Shown in pieces: positions 8,183 to 20,654 of a DNA stretch of 23,525 nucleotides. The stretch is from a virus: positions 1-23,525 of IMG/VR virus record IMGVR_UViG_3300025138_000367. One strand, written 5' to 3'. Position 1 is the stretch's first letter; the number at the start of each line of letters is the position of its first letter. Below the pieces are notes generated by a model, which was not told where the DNA came from, made no database searches, and saw nothing but the letters and a program-made list of their open reading frames with translations. The translations under genes and the position numbers were made by a program.

Positions 8183-8947
8183 ATGGTAAGTATAGATAGA
8201 GTATATCAAAAAGTTTTAGCGCTAGCTAACAAAGAACAAAGAGGGTATATAACTCCACAAGAGTTTAACTTATTTGCCGATCATGCTCAGATGGAAATAT
8301 TTGAGCAATATTTTTATGATATAAATCAATTCATGAAAATACCTGGTAACAATACTGTTTATTCTGATCCAATTGATATTATAGAAGACAAAATAGCTGC
8401 TTTTGAATATTGGGCTGTTCAAGATAACACTAATGTTACTGGTGATTATGGAGATATAAATTTATCACAATTTACAGATCTTTACAGGATAACAGAGGTT
8501 AGAGTTGATTATAGAGATGGGCTTGGTTATGCTATTTGTGAAGAAGTAAATTTAAAAGAGTTTAGAAGATATTCTGAAAGCCCACTAGCGCGCCATACTA
8601 CTAAAAGACCTGTTTTCATGCATTATCATGCTAATTACAATAGAATTAAAGTTTATCCTTATCCACCAAACTTAAACGATGTTAATAACAGTTTAATAAC
8701 AGGAGGAGATCTTGTAAGAATTAGTTATACAAAAAAACCAACTAGCCCAAACTGGGCATATGTTGTTATAAACAACAAACCGCTATACAACGCAACCTCT
8801 GCTGTTGATTTTGAACTACACGCTTCAGAAGAAGTAGAGTTAGTGTATAGAATATTAGCTTTAGCGGGCGTTGCAATTGAAAAACCAAACTTAACACAAA
8901 CAGCTGTTGGACTTGGTAGCGCTCAAATTCAAGTAGAAAAACAATAA
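8183..8947 (+). CDS. Head-tail connector (ring/adaptor) protein 1
   Basis: The 254-residue protein begins with a strongly family-like segment (VYQKVLALANKEQRGYITPQ, followed by EFNLFADHAQMEIFEQYF). I associate this with the small ring protein that docks below the portal in crAss-like phages and with many marine Bacteroidota phage connectors. The N-terminal 50 residues look helical, and the middle and C-terminal parts mix beta strands and loops (ITEVRVDYRDGLGYAICEEV). There is no catalytic motif. Its position matches T7 gene 11, the tail adaptor. It is translated from an A-rich leader (acaaaaaaagaaatt) just after a stable hairpin and is separated from the second ring gene by 4 bases, so the two are very likely made together. 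The family assignment is by recognition; the exact place in the neck is inferred. Confidence 0.75.
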   Translation: MVSIDRVYQKVLALANKEQRGYITPQEFNLFADHAQMEIFEQYFYDINQFMKIPGNNTVYSDPIDIIEDKIAAFEYWAVQDNTNVTGDYGDINLSQFTDLYRITEVRVDYRDGLGYAICEEVNLKEFRRYSESPLARHTTKRPVFMHYHANYNRIKVYPYPPNLNDVNNSLITGGDLVRISYTKKPTSPNWAYVVINNKPLYNATSAVDFELHASEEVELVYRILALAGVAIEKPNLTQTAVGLGSAQIQVEKQ

Positions 8948-8951
8948 ATAA

Positions 8952-10556
8952 ATGGGATTATTACATAACACTACAAATAGAGAATATTACCAGGGAAATA
9001 ATCTGGGTAACTATCAATTTACTTCTTTAGATCATATTATAACTCAGTTTCAAATAGCTTACGTTGGAGAAGGAAAAATAATACCAAAAGTAAAAAGAGC
9101 AGACGTTGTGTTTCACGCTCAAAGAGCTTTGCAAGAACTATCTTTTGACACTTTTAAATCTATAAAAGCTCAAGAAATAACGCTACCACCATCACTAACT
9201 ATGATATTGCCTCAAGACTATGTGGGTTACACTAAGTTAAGCTGGGTAGATTCATCTGGCATAAAACATCCTTTAATAAAAACAAACTCTACATCAAATC
9301 CATTTTCAATAAAACAAGAAGATAACGGTGATTATTTTTTTGAAAGCAACTATGTAAATATTGTTAATGGTGATTTTGATCAATCAATAAACACTGGTTG
9401 GAATATATCTAATGGTGATAAATCTGGCGCTTGGGATGGTATTAGTAGTAGCGTTAATTATCCTCAACCTATTTATTTAAACGACACAGTTGGAATAGTT
9501 TCAGAACAGCTTGAGTTTAGCAGCCTTTGGACAAGTCAATTTGGAGGTAATTTAGGTAGGTCTTATGGCGCTTGGCAACACATAGACGTATCAAGTGCAA
9601 GTTCAATAGATTTATCTGTTAACGGTAGTTCAGCAGCTAAAATAGTTGACGGCTCTACAACACTATGCGGCTTTGGAATACTTAGGGTAGGTTTTACAAC
9701 CACAAATCCAGCTATGGGTTGGCTTTCAAAAGGAACTAGTAGTCAGATACTTCCAGCTACTTTTACATCATCACAAAACCCAACAAACCCATCACCAAAT
9801 CAGTATGCTGAATACTTAGACGTGGGGTATTTAGAGTGGGATGATGGTACGGCTTCAACTAAAGAGCTTAACAACATAGATGTTAGTGGTTTAAACGAAA
9901 TTTGGGTGTACGTGCAAAGTCAAGCGCCTTGGACAGCGGCGGCAGCAACAACACTGACTAACACAGCAAGTTCAGGAGCAGCGGTTTGGAGTCCAACTTC
10001 GGCGGTTAATATAACGCCTTCGAAAAATAGTGTAGATTCTATATCTATAACTGTTCCAGAAGATGGCGTTTCGCTTACAAGTAAAAATAAAGATAATAAT
10101 TCAGATACTTGGTCAAACTACAAATCTCAAACTCCATCTGAAAATAATAACGAAGATTACGAAGATGATGTTTATTGGCCTATGAACGGACAAAGATATG
10201 GTCTTGATCCTCAGCACGCTCAGGTTAACGGATCTTTTTATATAGACAATACGTTTGGTAAAATAAATTTTAGCTCTAATATTGCTGGTAGAACCGTAGT
10301 GTTAGATTACATTAGTGATAGTTTGGGTACAGACGGAGAGATGCAAGTGCATAAGTTTGCAGAAGAAGCAATGTATAAGTGTATAGCATACGCAATTATT
10401 TCAACTTCTTCGTCTCAACTTTTACAACAGTTAGCACCTAGATTTAAAAAAGAAAGATTTGCTGAAATAAGAAAAGCAAAAATAAGATTATCAAGTTTAA
10501 AACTAGAAGAGCTTGCTCAAACTTTAAGAGGTAAATCCAAACAAATAAAACACTAG
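8952..10556 (+). CDS. Head-tail ring/connector protein 2 with a beta-sandwich insertion
   Basis: The 534-residue protein has a conserved frame split by an insert. Residues 1-137 include 'VFHAQRALQELSFDTFKSIK' and 'LPPSLTMILPQDYVGYTKL', and residues from about 405 on include 'NGQRYGLDPQHAQVNGSFYI' and 'VHKFAEEAMYKCIAYAIIST'. Both ends are typical of ring proteins in Bacteroidota phages, which join portal and tail. The C-terminus is a basic helical segment. Residues about 139-370 interrupt this frame with a Ser/Thr/Gly/Asn-rich module opening NGDFDQSINTGWNIS, a pattern like family 4/9 carbohydrate-binding modules. The module would sit on the outside of the neck. The gene starts 4 bases after ring protein 1 and ends 3 bases before the giant muzzle gene. 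The connector role is well supported; carbohydrate binding is inferred. Confidence 0.75.
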   Translation: MGLLHNTTNREYYQGNNLGNYQFTSLDHIITQFQIAYVGEGKIIPKVKRADVVFHAQRALQELSFDTFKSIKAQEITLPPSLTMILPQDYVGYTKLSWVDSSGIKHPLIKTNSTSNPFSIKQEDNGDYFFESNYVNIVNGDFDQSINTGWNISNGDKSGAWDGISSSVNYPQPIYLNDTVGIVSEQLEFSSLWTSQFGGNLGRSYGAWQHIDVSSASSIDLSVNGSSAAKIVDGSTTLCGFGILRVGFTTTNPAMGWLSKGTSSQILPATFTSSQNPTNPSPNQYAEYLDVGYLEWDDGTASTKELNNIDVSGLNEIWVYVQSQAPWTAAAATTLTNTASSGAAVWSPTSAVNITPSKNSVDSISITVPEDGVSLTSKNKDNNSDTWSNYKSQTPSENNNEDYEDDVYWPMNGQRYGLDPQHAQVNGSFYIDNTFGKINFSSNIAGRTVVLDYISDSLGTDGEMQVHKFAEEAMYKCIAYAIISTSSSQLLQQLAPRFKKERFAEIRKAKIRLSSLKLEELAQTLRGKSKQIKH

Positions 10557-10559
10557 TAT

Positions 10560-13500
10560 ATGCCAGAAATTAAACATCAGTTTACCGGTGGTAAAATGAA
10601 CAAAGATCTTGACGAAAGACTTGTTCCTAATGGAGAGTATAGAGACGCGATGAACATACAAGTCTCAACATCAGAGGGTTCTGACGTTGGTACTGTTCAA
10701 AATATATTAGGTAATTCTTTAGTTCCTGGACAAAACTTTATTGGAAATGGAGCGCTTTGTGTTGGTAGTATTGCTGATGAAAAACATGATAAACTATATT
10801 ATTTTGTTACTGAAAATAAAGAATTAATACAAAGTGGTAATTTTGATTTTGGTACAAATAAAGTTGTGTCAGGAGGTGTTGTTACATCTGCATCCACCGC
10901 TGAAAACTGGACTTTAGTTTACAATACAAGCGCAGAAGAAGGATGGGAATGGTCAGGACAAAAAATTAAAGGTACTGACGTGCCTTCAAATTATAAAATA
11001 AACCAATATTTAACAGATACACCGAGTCAATCTGGCGGAATACCAACAGGTGATTTCATTAAAGATGTTTTTTATGAAGTTAAATTTACTGTAAGTGGTA
11101 GTAATGGTGATTCTATAACGCTCACATTAAGCAATGAAGATGGAGAGCGTTTTTCTATATCATCCGGTTTAATGTCAGATGATGGCGATTATACATTTGT
11201 TAGACAACTAGGTTCTAGTCCCGCTACGACTAATAGTCAATTTTTCAATAGACTTTATATTCAAGCAACTGGTGGTGGTGGTTTTACCGGAAATATAGAT
11301 AATATATCTATAAAAAGAGTTGGTGACTATATAATAGAATATGATTCTAAAACCAACTCTGTAACACCTGTGATAGTAGACACTAATAATAGTGTTTTAA
11401 AGTTTTCTTCTAAAATGATGATAACAGGTATAAATATTATTGATGATATATTACTATGGACAGACAATGTTAATGAGCCTAAAAAAATAAGTATATCTAG
11501 GTGTAAGCAAGGAACACTAACAAATGGTTTAACAAAAACAAGTCTTATAGTAAAGGACCAAGAGCTAAGAGACTTAAAAGAAGAGGATATAACTTTAATT
11601 AAAAAATCTCCTTCAAAAGCGCCTATTATTAATAAAACACTTTTCCCTGAAGGCTCTACTACAGAAGGGCGTATTGGAGTGTATGGTCAATCACCCGCCA
11701 CAAATCTTAATGTTCCACTGTTTGATGTTGATAGTGAAGAGGGCGATGAGTTTTGGGTTGGTATAGGCTATTTAGTAGGGAATCGCCCAGAATTACTAGT
11801 GGGTGATACTATTAGATTATATTTAGGCACTAGCCCCGCTGTTGTTGATGATGAGTATGTTGCGCGGCTTTTAATAACAGAGGTTTATCCAGTTAACACC
11901 GAGCTTTCTATTGGTGGAAGTGTTATAGCTTATGATTATCAAATGGCTATAAAAGTACATGTATCAACAAAGATAGATCATAATACAAGTGTTGGAAATT
12001 ATTATTTTAAGGCAGAAAAAAATGTTGAAGGTATATTTAAACGTAAATTTCCTAGGTTTGCTTATAGGTACAAATACCAAGATGGTGAGTACTCTCCAGT
12101 AGGACCATTTTCTGAAGTTGTTTTTGTACCAGGCGATTTTAAATACCATCCCACTAAAGCTTACAATGAAGGCATGGTTAACACGCTTAAAGAACTAGAA
12201 CTAAAAAACTTTGTAACCGAAGATATTCCTCTTGATGTTGTTCAAATTGATTTGCTTTATAAAAACGAGTTTTCACCTAACGTGTATCTTATAAAAACTT
12301 TAGATAAAGATAGTGAATATTGGAATGCCAACGGTGGTCATGGCGCTTATGGTATAACTACAGAAAACATATATACTCAAATCCCTTCTAATCAACTTAT
12401 AAGGCCTTGGGACAATGTTCCAAGAAAAGCTTTAGCGCAAGAAGTTACTGGCAACAGGTTGGTGTATGCAAACTATACACAAGGATATAACATGTATGAT
12501 GACACTAACGCGGATATAACACCAAATCTTACCGCTAACTTGTATCCTAGAGAATTAAGTCATGGTGGTGGTAATAAAGCATTAAAATCATTAAAATCAC
12601 AAAGAACTTATAATGTTGGTATTGTTTATGGTGATAAATACGGTAGAGAAACACCTGTGTTTACTAATGACACGGCAAATCAACTAGTTACAAAATCTTT
12701 TAGCGCAACCTCTAATGCTTTAGGAATAAAAGTTAACAGTGATTATCCTTCTTGGGCTGACTACTATAAAATATTTATAAAAGAAACCGCAAACGAGTAC
12801 TACAACTTAGCTATGGGTAGGATATACGATGCTCAGGATGGTAATGTTTGGATTTCTTTTCCTTCTATTGATAGAAATAAAGTAAACGAAGATACTTACC
12901 TTATACTTAAGAAAGAAGTTGGTTATAACCAAGAAGATGGTGGCGCTGTTACAGCGGGCGATACAAATCCTGATGCTAGATATAAAATTGTAGCTATCAG
13001 CAACGAGGCGCCAGAATACATAAAAACAGAATACACTATACTTGCTGAAACTAATAAAAAAATTCATGGAGCCACATTATTTGGTGGAGTACAAGCTGGT
13101 GGTTTATTCTCTATAGGTAGTCCAGCTAACGGACCTACCCCAGGTAAAAGATCATTTACTATTGACTCTAGATGGTGGCAAGAAGATGGGTTAGATAACT
13201 GGCAGCTTGGGTTAACAGATCTTGAAACAATATGGAATGACAGAGGTCAAGATGATATTTATGTTTCTTTTTCAAACCGAAATCTTGATCTAACAACCAA
13301 TGCATCTGCTAGTAATCCTTTTAAGTTCGCGCCAACTGTTATGTCTAGAAAATATAAGGTTATAGACATATCTTCTGAGCCGTCAGCAGGTCCTGCTACA
13401 AGTGAGTACAACGGTCACGCTTTTTATAAAGTTAATTTAGCTGAGGTTATACCGCAAAATGAAGCTTGGTTAACCGAGTATCTTGGAGCGGGTGCAGATG

Positions 13501-16500
13501 GAGCTTACAATAAAGGTGGTAGACTACGACCTCATTTTTACAAAAAAGAAGTTTTGAACAAACCGGAGTTTGATGGTAGATTTTTTGTTAAAATAATAGA
13601 AGATGAAATAATAACTAAGGCTTTACGTACAGAAGATGTAAAAGTTGATTCTGGTTGGGAAGTAACGGCTTCAATTGATAATTTGTATTATTTAAAAGAT
13701 GGAACTGGTGTTGGTGAAACTGGGCAAAACTCTTCTACTACAAAAGAGCAGTGGGAAGATATATTTGCTGGTATGGGTTCAAGTGGCAAGTGGTTTATTG
13801 ATGAAGCTAGCTACGCGGGTTTACAACCTCTTGATGATGGGCATCCTAAAAATTCAGTTCATCAAATATTGAGTAATAGTAATAATATAACCTTAAGCGA
13901 TACTACCGAGAATAGATTTTTTCTTAAGTTTGATATTGGAAGTCCTGTGCAATTATACTACCCCTCCGGTGGTGCAAATGGTGATCCTTTCTATCCTAAC
14001 CCAGTTATTGATACAGAGCTATTAGCAAAGGGTAGTGGGATGTCAGAAGGTGGTGCTGCTTTAAGAGGTATTCACCAAGGGCGTTACGAAACAGTTGAAA
14101 TGGGTAATATCGATGTTGATGCTTATGTTGATGATAGTACCACGGCAACTTCCACTCAAACTGGTGGTAAATTCTTAAGTCTATCTTACAGTTCTATTGG
14201 TCCAGACAATGTTAACGACTACGACTCAGGAAGCTTAGCTAATGCCAATGAAGCAGCAATATACCCAAAAAAAGGTAAGCCTTTTTGGGATGCTTTTCAA
14301 GAAGAAAAAAACTGGTTTGTAGGTAGTGACGGAGGAACAAACTCTTTTACTAACGACCAAGATAATATAGTTTCTAATTTAAAGCGCGGAAGTTTATTTA
14401 GACTGGCTGGTGATTCGAACGTGTATAAAATCAAAGGAGTAACAAAGAAAAGAATATACAATTACATGGGTGCTATGTATTGGGATGGTGTAAAAAAAAT
14501 AACTTATGGAGTCGCGCATTACCATTCTAGTCAATATGGTAGCGATGGTTTTGAAAATTATACAGACACTGGTACGCCACCAAGCTACGCATATCCTGGC
14601 ACACCAGCAGATCTTAATGAAAATGGATTAGGTTACTTTTACACAAACAGCAGCGGTGTAAACACATGGTTTGGTTACAACAATAATGCTAATCCTAAAA
14701 ATGTTTATAATTTACTAAACGATCAAAACATAGCTGTTTATGGTGATAATATAGGCTCTTACACAGCGGTGCACGCGCAACACGCAAACATGACAGCGGC
14801 TACAAACTGTAGGGTAAACTACCTTATAAACTACGAAGTTTTATCTTTTGCAGAAAACCCTCAAATTGATAATGATTCAGATGAAAGAGATTTAGCAAGC
14901 AATTCAGTTATAACCGACACAAATCCACCTACCGCGACTAATTCTTGTAGGTTTGAATTTTTAAAAGAGTTTAGTACTGTTAAAGAAAACAGGCTACCTA
15001 AGTTTCCAGCTGTGTTTGAAACAGAGCCTACTGAAGATGTTGGGCTTGATATATACTACGAAGCTTCTGGTAAAGTGCCTGTAAAACTAAACTATACCAA
15101 CATATCTAATTTTTTGCAAATTGGCTCTAGTGTTGGAGGTGGCTCTGGCGCTTTTGTAACAGACATAACCTACGTAGATCCAAACAGCTATAACAACGTA
15201 ACAGCCTGGAGGATTGGTTTGTCCACACCAGTTGATCGTAATTTTTTTGGCAGCGTGGGCACTGAGGTTAATTTTTACAACGAAGATGGTGGGTTTGTTA
15301 TTGGAAATCTACTAGGTGTAATAAACCCTTTGGGAGTAGATTCAACCTACGCGTATAGTGATGACGGTGGGATTGTTGTTATTCCTGGTTTTGACTTTAT
15401 TGATCCAGACGATCCAACCAATAGCCCTTTAGTTATTGAAGTAGACTCTATTATAGTAACTTTTACAACAAATAAAATTGGATTAGGTTGGTTTAACTGC
15501 TGGAGCTTTGGTAATGGAGTTGAATCTAACCGTATTGGAGATACCTACAACAAGCCATTTATAACAAATGGCGTTAAAGTATCCACAACATTATTAGATA
15601 AATATGAAGAAGAACATAGAAAATACGGATTAATATATTCTGGTATTTACAACTCCACAAGCGGTGTTAATAGTTTAAACCAGTTTATTGCTGGTGAAAA
15701 AATTACAAAAGATATAAACCCATCATATGGTAGTATTCAAAAACTACACTCAAGATCCACGGCGGACGGAGATTTAATTGCGTTGTGTGAAGATAGGGTT
15801 TTAAAAATATTAGCCAATAAAGATGCTTTGTTTAATGCAGACGGAAACCCTCAGCTTATAGCTAACAACAGTGTGCTTGGCCAAACAATACCTTTTGTAG
15901 GTGAGTATGGCATATCTAAAAACCCAGAATCATTTGCTTCTGAATCTTACAGAGTTTATTTTACCGATAGAGTAAGAGGTGCTGTTATAAGATTATCAAA
16001 AGATGGGTTAACACCTATATCAAGCCACGGTATGAAAGATTGGTTTAAAGACAATTTATCACTTGGAACAACAAACTTGTTAGGCGAAAATAATCTTAGC
16101 TCACAAGATAACTGGAGCATACCTAGCAATGGTAATTCAGCCGTGGTAAATGGTGAGGCTATTTTAGGTTACTATAATAATGATATTAATGATAGTAGAT
16201 ATGGTGGAGTTGCTCGCCTTCGAATGAATAACATATTAGAAATTGGTAAAACATATAGATTGCAATATGAAGTTATAGAGCACAGTGGGCTTAAAAACCA
16301 AAACACTGGTGATTACAGCGCTATGGCTGTGGTTAATACGTTCCCAGGTAGTGGTTGGATATCAGGAGCATATAGTGGTAGCCAGGGAGCAACAAATGGC
16401 GGTAGAGTAAATGCCACGTGGACAGCAAATAGAACTGATTTTGAATTACTACATTATCAAGTTAACAGTCCGAGTGGTTTGTACACACCACTGACTGGAG

Positions 16501-18365
16501 ATCCATTACATGGTGTTCTTTTTTCGCTAGGCTCTGCTGCCGCGGGTTCGGGATCAATACGTGATTACGTTAGGTATAGAAGAATACAAGGCGGTTGGCC
16601 GGATACTAATAACAATGGTATTCCAGATAACAATGATTACCCTAGCACCAATTGGCTTTACGGTGGTATTGTAAGAATTAAAAATTTAATAGTAACTGAA
16701 GTAAAAGAGGACTCGAAGCTAATTGGTAGTTATGACGATAACAAAGAAGAGTATAACATTACAATACATAGCGATCAACCCGCAACAGTTTCTTTTAAAG
16801 AAAACACAAAAGGATGGGTAAGCTTCAAATCATTTATACCAGAACACGCTGTTAGTTGTGCTAATAATTATTACACGATAAATAACGGTAAGCTTTGGCA
16901 ACACCACAATCCAGGTGTAAATAGAAACACTTTTTACAATGTGTTTAGTGATTCTAGTTTTGATGTTTTGTTAAACGATATGCCAAGCAGTGTAAAATCT
17001 TATCATGCTTTAGATTACGAAGGAAGTCAATCTAGAGTTGAGGGTATTAAAACTCTTAGTGTAACCGGTGTACAGGCTAATGGTGGATTTGCTTTTGATG
17101 GTAAATATGCGTTTTTTGAAGTTTCAGACATGAATGCTTTGATGGGTGAAAACATAAGCTGGAGTAATAAAAACCACAATATAAAGCAGTATAGAAATAA
17201 CACACTTATATTTGAAGGTTTAATTATTGGTTGGGCAAACACAAGTTCAAACTCTTTAACTTCACCGTCAGGTGGACCAACTAAAGGGCACTTTAGAAAA
17301 GTTTCAGGTAGCAATCCTGGTGACTTTAAAGTTGGTGACATTATAACCACTCAAGCGCAAGAGGATTCTGTTAATCATTTTAACTCTAAACCTTTAGATG
17401 GCTGGCATGTAACTAGTATCGAAACAGACAAAGAAAAAGGTAGTTTACTTGAGTTTATAGAAAAAGAAGGCAAATGGTTTAACTATATAAAAGGCGTTGA
17501 AAAAGAAATAAATAGTGATTTTGACTTTGGGGCGTTAGAAGTACAGGGTTTAGGTGTTATAAAAAGTTCAGTTGAAATAACAGAAAACAATGTTGTTGTT
17601 GGAGTTGAGCTAGATATAAGTGGAGGTGTAAACTCATCTCTTCAGGTTGGCGATATTATTTACCACGAACAAATGAGCCAAAATCTAGAAGACAATATAT
17701 TAGATGTAAATCTATTTACTAGCGGCTATAATCAATCTTATTACAATTCCATAGGTAATACAAATATGGGTAGTGATTTAGGTTTTGTAATTAATACGCC
17801 AACAACAGTTACTTGGAACGGGTTAAACGATGTTAACGTTCCTTCTGGGGTTAATTACCTTAATAACGTAACTCTACCACTAGAGGTTGGCGCAACTTAC
17901 TTTGTTAAGCTAGTGTTAACCAACTATAACGGTACGGGTGATTTGGGCTTGACAACAAATGGAGGATTAAGTAGTAACATGAGGCTTGCGGGCGATGGAT
18001 CTGTTAGTGAGTTTTTTGTTTCTAATGGCAATAGACCAGATTTATTTGGTAGATCTACAAATTCAGGCGATATGAATATTACCATTCAAAAAGCTGTATC
18101 AGGTGGAATACTTGGTTTTACAAGATTAGAACCTAGCAATTTAACAAAAGCCGGCGTGGTTACATCTATAAACAGTAACACTATCTCAATAGATCTTAGC
18201 GGTATAATTCCACTAAACTCTACATATGGTATGTTTGTTAAAAATCAAGTTATAAATATGAGTGGTTTATCTGGTTATTATGCAACAGCAAAATTTAAAA
18301 ATAATTCTAAAACAAAAGCCGAGCTATTTTCAGTTTCATCTGAAGTAAGCGAAAGCAGTAAATAA
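10560..18365 (+). CDS. Giant tail muzzle/stabilisation protein with three beta-sandwich insertions
   Basis: This 2601-residue protein probably builds the tail nozzle that seals the DNA channel. The opening (FTGGKMNKDLDERLVPNGEY, then RDAMNIQVST and GTVQNILGNS) is the hallmark of the 'stabilisation/muzzle' family of crAss-like and marine Bacteroidota phages. Further family-like blocks are YKYQDGEYSPVGPFSEV (near 503), 'ETEPTEDVGLDIYYEASG' (near 1487), 'WFNCWSFGNGVESNR' (near 1643) and 'VGEYGISKNPESFASESYRV' through ISSHGMKDWF (about 1780-1830), the last with beta-propeller character. Three Gly/Ser/Asn-rich modules resembling carbohydrate-binding domains interrupt it at about 91-255, 1838-2048 and 2380-2515; the second holds D-T-N-N-N-G-I-P-D-N-N-D (2015-2026), a thrombospondin type 3-like calcium loop. 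No lyase or peptidase motif was recognised. The start lies 3 bases after the ring gene. Confidence 0.77.
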   Translation: MPEIKHQFTGGKMNKDLDERLVPNGEYRDAMNIQVSTSEGSDVGTVQNILGNSLVPGQNFIGNGALCVGSIADEKHDKLYYFVTENKELIQSGNFDFGTNKVVSGGVVTSASTAENWTLVYNTSAEEGWEWSGQKIKGTDVPSNYKINQYLTDTPSQSGGIPTGDFIKDVFYEVKFTVSGSNGDSITLTLSNEDGERFSISSGLMSDDGDYTFVRQLGSSPATTNSQFFNRLYIQATGGGGFTGNIDNISIKRVGDYIIEYDSKTNSVTPVIVDTNNSVLKFSSKMMITGINIIDDILLWTDNVNEPKKISISRCKQGTLTNGLTKTSLIVKDQELRDLKEEDITLIKKSPSKAPIINKTLFPEGSTTEGRIGVYGQSPATNLNVPLFDVDSEEGDEFWVGIGYLVGNRPELLVGDTIRLYLGTSPAVVDDEYVARLLITEVYPVNTELSIGGSVIAYDYQMAIKVHVSTKIDHNTSVGNYYFKAEKNVEGIFKRKFPRFAYRYKYQDGEYSPVGPFSEVVFVPGDFKYHPTKAYNEGMVNTLKELELKNFVTEDIPLDVVQIDLLYKNEFSPNVYLIKTLDKDSEYWNANGGHGAYGITTENIYTQIPSNQLIRPWDNVPRKALAQEVTGNRLVYANYTQGYNMYDDTNADITPNLTANLYPRELSHGGGNKALKSLKSQRTYNVGIVYGDKYGRETPVFTNDTANQLVTKSFSATSNALGIKVNSDYPSWADYYKIFIKETANEYYNLAMGRIYDAQDGNVWISFPSIDRNKVNEDTYLILKKEVGYNQEDGGAVTAGDTNPDARYKIVAISNEAPEYIKTEYTILAETNKKIHGATLFGGVQAGGLFSIGSPANGPTPGKRSFTIDSRWWQEDGLDNWQLGLTDLETIWNDRGQDDIYVSFSNRNLDLTTNASASNPFKFAPTVMSRKYKVIDISSEPSAGPATSEYNGHAFYKVNLAEVIPQNEAWLTEYLGAGADGAYNKGGRLRPHFYKKEVLNKPEFDGRFFVKIIEDEIITKALRTEDVKVDSGWEVTASIDNLYYLKDGTGVGETGQNSSTTKEQWEDIFAGMGSSGKWFIDEASYAGLQPLDDGHPKNSVHQILSNSNNITLSDTTENRFFLKFDIGSPVQLYYPSGGANGDPFYPNPVIDTELLAKGSGMSEGGAALRGIHQGRYETVEMGNIDVDAYVDDSTTATSTQTGGKFLSLSYSSIGPDNVNDYDSGSLANANEAAIYPKKGKPFWDAFQEEKNWFVGSDGGTNSFTNDQDNIVSNLKRGSLFRLAGDSNVYKIKGVTKKRIYNYMGAMYWDGVKKITYGVAHYHSSQYGSDGFENYTDTGTPPSYAYPGTPADLNENGLGYFYTNSSGVNTWFGYNNNANPKNVYNLLNDQNIAVYGDNIGSYTAVHAQHANMTAATNCRVNYLINYEVLSFAENPQIDNDSDERDLASNSVITDTNPPTATNSCRFEFLKEFSTVKENRLPKFPAVFETEPTEDVGLDIYYEASGKVPVKLNYTNISNFLQIGSSVGGGSGAFVTDITYVDPNSYNNVTAWRIGLSTPVDRNFFGSVGTEVNFYNEDGGFVIGNLLGVINPLGVDSTYAYSDDGGIVVIPGFDFIDPDDPTNSPLVIEVDSIIVTFTTNKIGLGWFNCWSFGNGVESNRIGDTYNKPFITNGVKVSTTLLDKYEEEHRKYGLIYSGIYNSTSGVNSLNQFIAGEKITKDINPSYGSIQKLHSRSTADGDLIALCEDRVLKILANKDALFNADGNPQLIANNSVLGQTIPFVGEYGISKNPESFASESYRVYFTDRVRGAVIRLSKDGLTPISSHGMKDWFKDNLSLGTTNLLGENNLSSQDNWSIPSNGNSAVVNGEAILGYYNNDINDSRYGGVARLRMNNILEIGKTYRLQYEVIEHSGLKNQNTGDYSAMAVVNTFPGSGWISGAYSGSQGATNGGRVNATWTANRTDFELLHYQVNSPSGLYTPLTGDPLHGVLFSLGSAAAGSGSIRDYVRYRRIQGGWPDTNNNGIPDNNDYPSTNWLYGGIVRIKNLIVTEVKEDSKLIGSYDDNKEEYNITIHSDQPATVSFKENTKGWVSFKSFIPEHAVSCANNYYTINNGKLWQHHNPGVNRNTFYNVFSDSSFDVLLNDMPSSVKSYHALDYEGSQSRVEGIKTLSVTGVQANGGFAFDGKYAFFEVSDMNALMGENISWSNKNHNIKQYRNNTLIFEGLIIGWANTSSNSLTSPSGGPTKGHFRKVSGSNPGDFKVGDIITTQAQEDSVNHFNSKPLDGWHVTSIETDKEKGSLLEFIEKEGKWFNYIKGVEKEINSDFDFGALEVQGLGVIKSSVEITENNVVVGVELDISGGVNSSLQVGDIIYHEQMSQNLEDNILDVNLFTSGYNQSYYNSIGNTNMGSDLGFVINTPTTVTWNGLNDVNVPSGVNYLNNVTLPLEVGATYFVKLVLTNYNGTGDLGLTTNGGLSSNMRLAGDGSVSEFFVSNGNRPDLFGRSTNSGDMNITIQKAVSGGILGFTRLEPSNLTKAGVVTSINSNTISIDLSGIIPLNSTYGMFVKNQVINMSGLSGYYATAKFKNNSKTKAELFSVSSEVSESSK

Positions 18366-20213: not shown

Positions 20214-20654
20214 ATGGATAATAATATAAACTTTAGATCTTTTAAAAAAGGAGATTATAAAACTTGTGTTGAGTGGTGGAAGTGGTGGTGGAAGCGTACT
20301 GGTTTAAACCCTGTTCAAAGAGCTTTTTTACCAAAAGATGAAAGATGTTTTGTTATAGAGAAAAATGGCATACCAGTGGCTTGTTACTTTTTGTTTATAA
20401 TGGAGCCACATATAGTAGGTTGGACAACTTATTTGGTTACAAATCCAAATTACAAAAAAAAAGATAGAAAAGAAATAATAAGACTTTTAGTGAAAAAAGT
20501 AGAAAAAGAAGCGGAAAAAATTGGTGTAATGCAGTTGTTTACAATATGCATGAATGAACACATGACAAATATACATAAAGATTTAGATTGGATATTAATG
20601 CCAGTTCAAAACGAAGGTTTTAAATATCTAACAAATAACTTTATAAAAAACTAA
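20214..20654 (+). CDS. GNAT-fold protein in the internal virion protein cluster
   Basis: The 146-residue protein resembles the small GNAT-like proteins found beside internal virion genes of T7-like and marine podoviruses. It has a Trp-rich N-terminal helix (WWKWWWKR, 21-28), FLP (38-40), a central beta region with 'GIPVACYFLFI' (52-62), then 'VTNPNYKKKDRKEIIRLLVK' (75-94), which occupies the place of GNAT motif A. The usual [QR]-x-x-G-x-[GA] acetyl-CoA loop is absent and replaced by KKKDRKE, so catalysis is doubtful and a structural role is possible. It lies directly before the Gln/Ala-rich gene, as T7 gene 13 precedes gene 14. It is preceded by the 50-base gap and followed by a 6-base spacer. 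The GNAT-like fold is moderately sure; enzymatic activity is not. Confidence 0.7.
   Translation: MDNNINFRSFKKGDYKTCVEWWKWWWKRTGLNPVQRAFLPKDERCFVIEKNGIPVACYFLFIMEPHIVGWTTYLVTNPNYKKKDRKEIIRLLVKKVEKEAEKIGVMQLFTICMNEHMTNIHKDLDWILMPVQNEGFKYLTNNFIKN

Follow-up and report, generated by a model that had tools for sequence, protein, structure and literature searches.

The ring gene and its surroundings

The window, that is, the whole stretch of DNA analysed here (23,525 nucleotides), is a virus contig of 23.5 kb that carries genes for a terminase, a portal protein, a capsid protein, two neck proteins and a nozzle-like protein of 2601 residues. The gene of interest is encoded between portal and nozzle, as are the ring/adaptor proteins of podoviruses, and it contains a large internal domain. 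The features of the region are:

8183..8947, plus strand: virion structural protein, possibly a second neck protein (phrog_14543, PHROG E 1.3e-31; order kept in Panino and elemo)
8952..10556, plus strand: predicted ring/adaptor protein gene, an open frame of 534 residues (phrog_13977; ring/adaptor fold of podovirus type in the model of an insert-free relative)
8952..9341, plus strand: N-terminal ring core, residues 1-130, with two helices and the first beta-sandwich strands (model; aligns across all relatives)
9342..10064, plus strand: inserted domain, residues 131-371 (241 residues), predicted CBM-like jelly roll, type A module (most core strands at AlphaFold2 pLDDT 75-93; best VIA Z 13.6; missing in 18 of 73 relatives)
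9366..9377, plus strand: N-G-D-F motif, residues 139-142, at the start of the domain (from the sequence; F invariant in 14 aligned type A inserts)
10065..10103, plus strand: joint matching the short loop of insert-free relatives, for example SGNELDFETES (alignment)
10104..10553, plus strand: C-terminal ring core, residues 385-534, with a conserved YGLDP stretch, the last strands and the C-terminal helices (aligns across all relatives)
10560..18365, plus strand: nozzle/muzzle-like virion protein, 2601 residues, directly downstream of the ring gene (phrog_14478, PHROG E 1.7e-139)
10833..11330, plus strand: second insert, residues 92-257 of the nozzle-like protein, a candidate CBM4/9-like module by its pattern SGNFDFG...GNIDNISIKRV (missing at the same joint in relatives; profile match)

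In the PHROG comparison, the 534-residue protein hits phrog_13977, a virion structural protein of the head and packaging category (E 1.8e-41), most strongly over residues 7-142. A phmmer search against the PDB sequences matched nothing. Comparison of the ring family profiles with the phicrAss001 rings R1-R4 by hhalign gave no significant match, which leaves fold and gene order as the grounds for calling it a ring protein. From the AlphaFold2 model of an insert-free relative (L072; 58 sequences, mean pLDDT 61), a fold of helices and a beta-sandwich is predicted, of the podovirus head-tail ring/adaptor type. Foldseek matched this model to phicrAss001 ring chains (E 5.9e-4), and the VIA Z scores were 9.8 and 9.6 for phicrAss001 ring chains, 9.8 for KHP30, 8.0 for N4 and 7.5 for T7 gp11; other adaptors also match, and the fold resembles structural proteins predicted for the phages Gundel_1 (Tenacibaculum) and phi14:2 (Cellulophaga). 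The gene order terL, portal, capsid, phrog_14543, ring and nozzle is kept in the cultured Maribacter phage Panino and the Flavobacterium elemo phage. Predicted fold and gene order thus support a head-tail ring/adaptor-like protein as the carrier of the insert, in line with the ring protein named by the sequence-only reading. The ring core would have a structural job at the joint from portal to nozzle, presumably as a dodecamer.

The relatives of the portal belong to phages of Flavobacterium, Cellulophaga, Maribacter and Tenacibaculum, and those of the ring protein fall in bins of Flavobacteriaceae, Saprospiraceae and Sphingobacteriales, with two bins from other phyla. A Bacteroidota host is therefore likely, and it is probably marine; the cultured relatives have marine and brackish Flavobacteriia as hosts. 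The virion gene block also holds a GNAT acetyltransferase-like gene (20214-20654; Pfam Acetyltransf_1, E 2.4e-4).

Boundaries and predicted fold of the inserted domain

For the comparison, the best 80 matches of an IMG/VR search were kept as loci, a sample biased towards the window, and 73 distinct ring proteins were compared, including those of Panino and elemo. The strong evidence for an insert is homology: among these 73 proteins from the best 80 matches, the joint is short in 18 (10-12 residues) and filled in 55 (100-274 residues), and the insert-free relatives align to the 534-residue protein only at residues 1 to about 130 and about 380 to 534. An insert conserved in all relatives is thereby ruled out. 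The sequence-only reading had placed an interruption of the ring frame at residues 139-370, which agrees with the structural domain at 131-371. It had also pointed to a composition rich in Ser, Thr, Asn and Gly, and these four residues do make up 41% of the domain as against 28% of the rest of the protein (Lys and Arg, 3% against 11%). Since 111 of 5000 shuffled proteins contained an equally rich stretch, composition alone is modest evidence. A chance open frame or an assembly artefact was considered separately and ruled out, as the type A module stands in an uninterrupted frame in 14 further distinct ring proteins from other contigs.

The domain opens with N139-G-D-F (at 9366), continues with D-Q-S-I-N-T and reaches G-W-N-I, which is the N-G-D-F to G-W-x-I opening that had first drawn attention to it. 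Within the type A family, F is the only invariant residue of the N-x-x-F part, and the W is nearly invariant. Few other positions are fixed; the invariant residues are F12, L57, Q79, G112, G117, L245 and S254 in the numbering of the insert.

In the AlphaFold2 model of the whole protein (27 sequences), most strands of the insert have pLDDT values of 75-93 and the ring core stays under about 55. The prediction is of a separable beta-sandwich, not of a continuous ring fold. The top Foldseek matches of the insert were a CBM4 (1gui, E 1.1e-4), the endo-arabinanase EndoMA1 (E 1.8e-4) and TmCBM61 (E 3.3e-4). When residues 131-371 of the model were compared by VIA, EndoMA1 gave a Z of 13.6 (rmsd 2.4 A over 137 aligned residues), followed by CBM16 (12.8), a porphyran-binding CBM (12.7), TmCBM61 (12.0) and CBM4 (11.2); alginate-binding CBMs were also among the good fold matches. 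The model thus supports an autonomous, separable beta-sandwich of CBM type, set into a loop of the ring protein's own beta-sandwich half.

The assignment to a CBM4/9-like module, proposed from the motif, holds at the level of predicted fold and fails at the level of family. The best structural matches are CBM16, CBM61 and arabinan- and porphyran-binding modules, not CBM4 in particular, and identity in the structural alignments with CBMs is at most about 16%. No CBM model was hit when the insert and 13 relatives were scanned against Pfam at E up to 5, the NCBIfam scan of the inserts gave no CBM family and nothing convincing, and the PHROGs scan gave weak matches only, to families of unknown function. 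With the window's insert alone, a peptide-pattern search of IMG/VR found no relative, and tblastn against cultured phages returned only chance-level matches; an alignment of the inserts offered no segment of sufficient conservation to serve as a query, and the type A relatives come from the search with the whole protein. The insert is therefore CBM-like by predicted fold, outside any Pfam CBM family. Folds other than CBMs also score well, including a bacterial cyclase, Eph receptor domains and Cry toxin domains, and the VIA Z exceeds 10 for Cry toxin C-terminal domains, the bacterial cyclase and tailspike domains. With such folds among the good matches, the jelly-roll fold alone shows neither sugar binding nor a ligand.

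On balance, we think it probable, with some reserve, that the insert is an ancillary neck adhesin, exchangeable and probably present in several copies, that binds a glycan of the host surface. It would hang outside the neck in as many copies as there are ring subunits, and would act as a weak, multivalent adhesin for a host polysaccharide (capsule, LPS or exopolysaccharide) that may aid adsorption, either ahead of the main tail fibres or alongside them. In the insert-free model of L072 the joint falls within a long loop of low prediction confidence (about 110-183) that connects strands of the beta-sandwich. As the ring-core models are of middling confidence (mean pLDDT 56 and 61), that the joint faces outward is something we infer.

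Exchange and divergence of modules

Among the 73 ring proteins from the best 80 matches, the joint is empty in 18, holds the window's type A in 15 and other domains in 40. A large group with the pattern G-M-x-V-x-G-P-x-I-P-x-G-T, found in 33 rings, makes up types C and D and the greater part of E on the tree; this frequent type (L020, L024, L048, L070 and others) is unrelated and has no family match. The small groups and singletons are L031/L033/L035, L030, L042, L040 and L059. By profile comparison, the L031/L033/L035 inserts link to the L030 insert (81%) and to the window's own nozzle insert (89%), and type A links to no other type. In three proteins (L055, L064 and L078; ring ORF from 3311) the main joint is empty and an insert of about 220 residues lies near the N-terminus, at what appears to be an alternative insertion site.

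On a tree of the ring core, made without the insert columns, the seven insert states require 12 changes, where the minimum possible is 6 and shuffled states require 43.8. Well-supported sisters can carry different modules, as is the case for L006 (type A) and L030 (another type), with cores 87% identical, and for L033/L035 and L038, with cores 86% identical. The same is seen in the DNA. Between L030 and L007, whose ring protein is the same as that of L006, identity is 83-94% on both sides of an insert that cannot be aligned, and about 94% of the nozzle DNA is shared. In L035 and L038, a collinear stretch of about 33 kb, mostly at 82-97% DNA identity, is interrupted by the ring insert of about 0.6 kb, which is wholly replaced; elsewhere the two differ by short gaps and one 71% stretch only, and the nozzle-like protein (86% of amino acids) and the next large protein (77%) are still homologous. 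On the reading preferred here the joint is an exchange site, at which recombination would swap in unrelated modules, or none, and leave the rest of the ring and the nozzle unchanged.

These pairs also bear on whether the insert instead serves tail fibres or collar proteins as a docking platform, which would bind protein, not glycan, and would vary to fit the fibre. In phicrAss001 the fibre docking hubs do attach at the R1 and R2 rings (PMC10172136), and variability of the insert would then track fibre exchange. Yet the L035/L038 insert is wholly replaced while the nozzle-like protein, the next large protein and other virion genes stay homologous over the 33 kb, and L007 and L030 share about 94% of the nozzle DNA despite their different inserts. 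The 18 insert-free relatives would, moreover, need another docking route, and the top fold matches are mostly glycan-binding modules. We consider docking unlikely.

In addition to being replaced, the type A module diverges fast where it is retained. In close pairs of type A proteins the core is 78-88% identical and the insert 18-37%; for the window and L004 the values are 82% and 18%, and for L004 and L011 they are 88% and 29%. Such divergence would be odd if the insert were a structural decoration packed on a conserved partner, stabilising the neck or a capsid contact by a neutral and freely exchangeable fold, and several unrelated folds would then need to serve the same contacts. Decoration would fit the insert-free relatives, in which the ring works without the domain, and the Ig-like domains of the R4C adaptor have been read as stabilising (PMC10276861), but we regard it as very unlikely here.

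Flavobacteriia live on algal polysaccharides. Since porphyran- and alginate-binding CBMs are among the good fold matches and marine and brackish members of this class are hosts of related cultured phages, the module might bind an environmental polysaccharide, algal or particle-attached, which would keep the phage near its hosts without being the host receptor. The ligand cannot, however, be told from the fold, and a conserved site whose content diverges fast points more typically to recognition of the host surface; environmental binding seems to us decidedly unlikely. The adhesin for a host glycan remains the reading that we prefer, and one point against it is that 18 of the 73 relatives (from the best 80 matches) manage without an insert at the joint.

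The nozzle-like protein has a swap site of its own, after residue 84, which holds the candidate CBM-like module in the window and is empty in many relatives (L011, L014, L016, L033 and others). The hhalign probability for the nozzle insert against the type B ring insert is 88.9%. For this insert, and for ring insert types B-E, the CBM-like nature is a candidate assignment from sequence pattern and profile matches. Since the ring insert of L031 (4388-4873) resembles the nozzle insert of L046 (31% over 73 residues, E 2e-6), the ring and nozzle modules may be drawn from a shared pool. Further apparent beta-rich modules lie in the nozzle-like protein at 16074-16700 (NLLGENNLSSQDNW...) and 17691-18090 (DNILDVNLFTSG...).

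Significance and comparison with known systems

Taken together, we suggest tentatively that Bacteroidota podovirus-like phages have two neighbouring exchange sites, in ring and nozzle, at which phages that are otherwise near-identical exchange modules, some of glycan-binding type and others unrelated, out of a shared pool. This is possible, though we would not yet lean towards it: a cassette that would change the neck adhesin and leave the tail fibres untouched. If the modules bind glycans, host-surface recognition extends beyond the fibres and a structural ring serves as a display platform. What accessory beta-sandwich domains do on phage virions is an old question. The natural set described here, with its empty joints, its modules of unrelated kinds and its pairs of genomes in which a single module is the main difference, opens that question to direct test through exchange or removal of one domain. 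Because no family database recognises such modules, annotation that relies on similarity of whole proteins will overlook them.

Several parts of this picture are already known, namely CBMs on necks, domain exchange in neck passage proteins (PMC10684548) and an accessory beta-sandwich on an adaptor. A partial literature search found no report of a podovirus ring protein that houses an exchangeable insert of CBM-like type. The neck had been called an unusual place for such a domain; this stands for podovirus ring proteins and not for necks in general, as CBMs on the necks of lactococcal 936 phages have been published (PMC6669499).

The known glycan-binding modules (CBM16, CBM61, CBM4 and porphyran-binding) share with the insert the beta-sandwich jelly roll, at Z of about 11-13, whereas the insert has at most about 16% identity to them, matches no family profile and lies within a virion protein. 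The rings R1-R5 and muzzle of phicrAss001 provide the best fold match of the core and the same arrangement, with the muzzle/nozzle gene directly after a ring gene (gp43-gp44; PMC10172136). They differ in that the rings, of 225-238 residues, have no such insert and no detectable sequence match, and in that there are several ring paralogues and fibre hubs.

In roseophage R4C, cryo-EM has shown that the head-tail adaptor, a dodecamer, carries an accessory beta-sandwich at its periphery (PMC10276861). That domain is Ig-like, lies at the N-terminus and was read as stabilising; the authors argued that it sits too near the head to take part in adsorption (PMC10276861), which counts against an adhesin here. 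The window's is predicted, by contrast, to be an internal, exchangeable jelly roll of CBM type. In the lactococcal 936 phages, CBMs are displayed at the neck, several unrelated module groups stand behind a common base, and a GFP fusion to one of them, the PhiA.16 neck CBM, attached to host cells, a precedent for the function proposed here (PMC6669499). The 936 module forms the C-terminal end of a separate protein, a dedicated collar fibre, in siphophages of Gram-positive hosts, whereas the one described here is set inside a predicted ring/adaptor protein of a podovirus-like phage of Bacteroidota.
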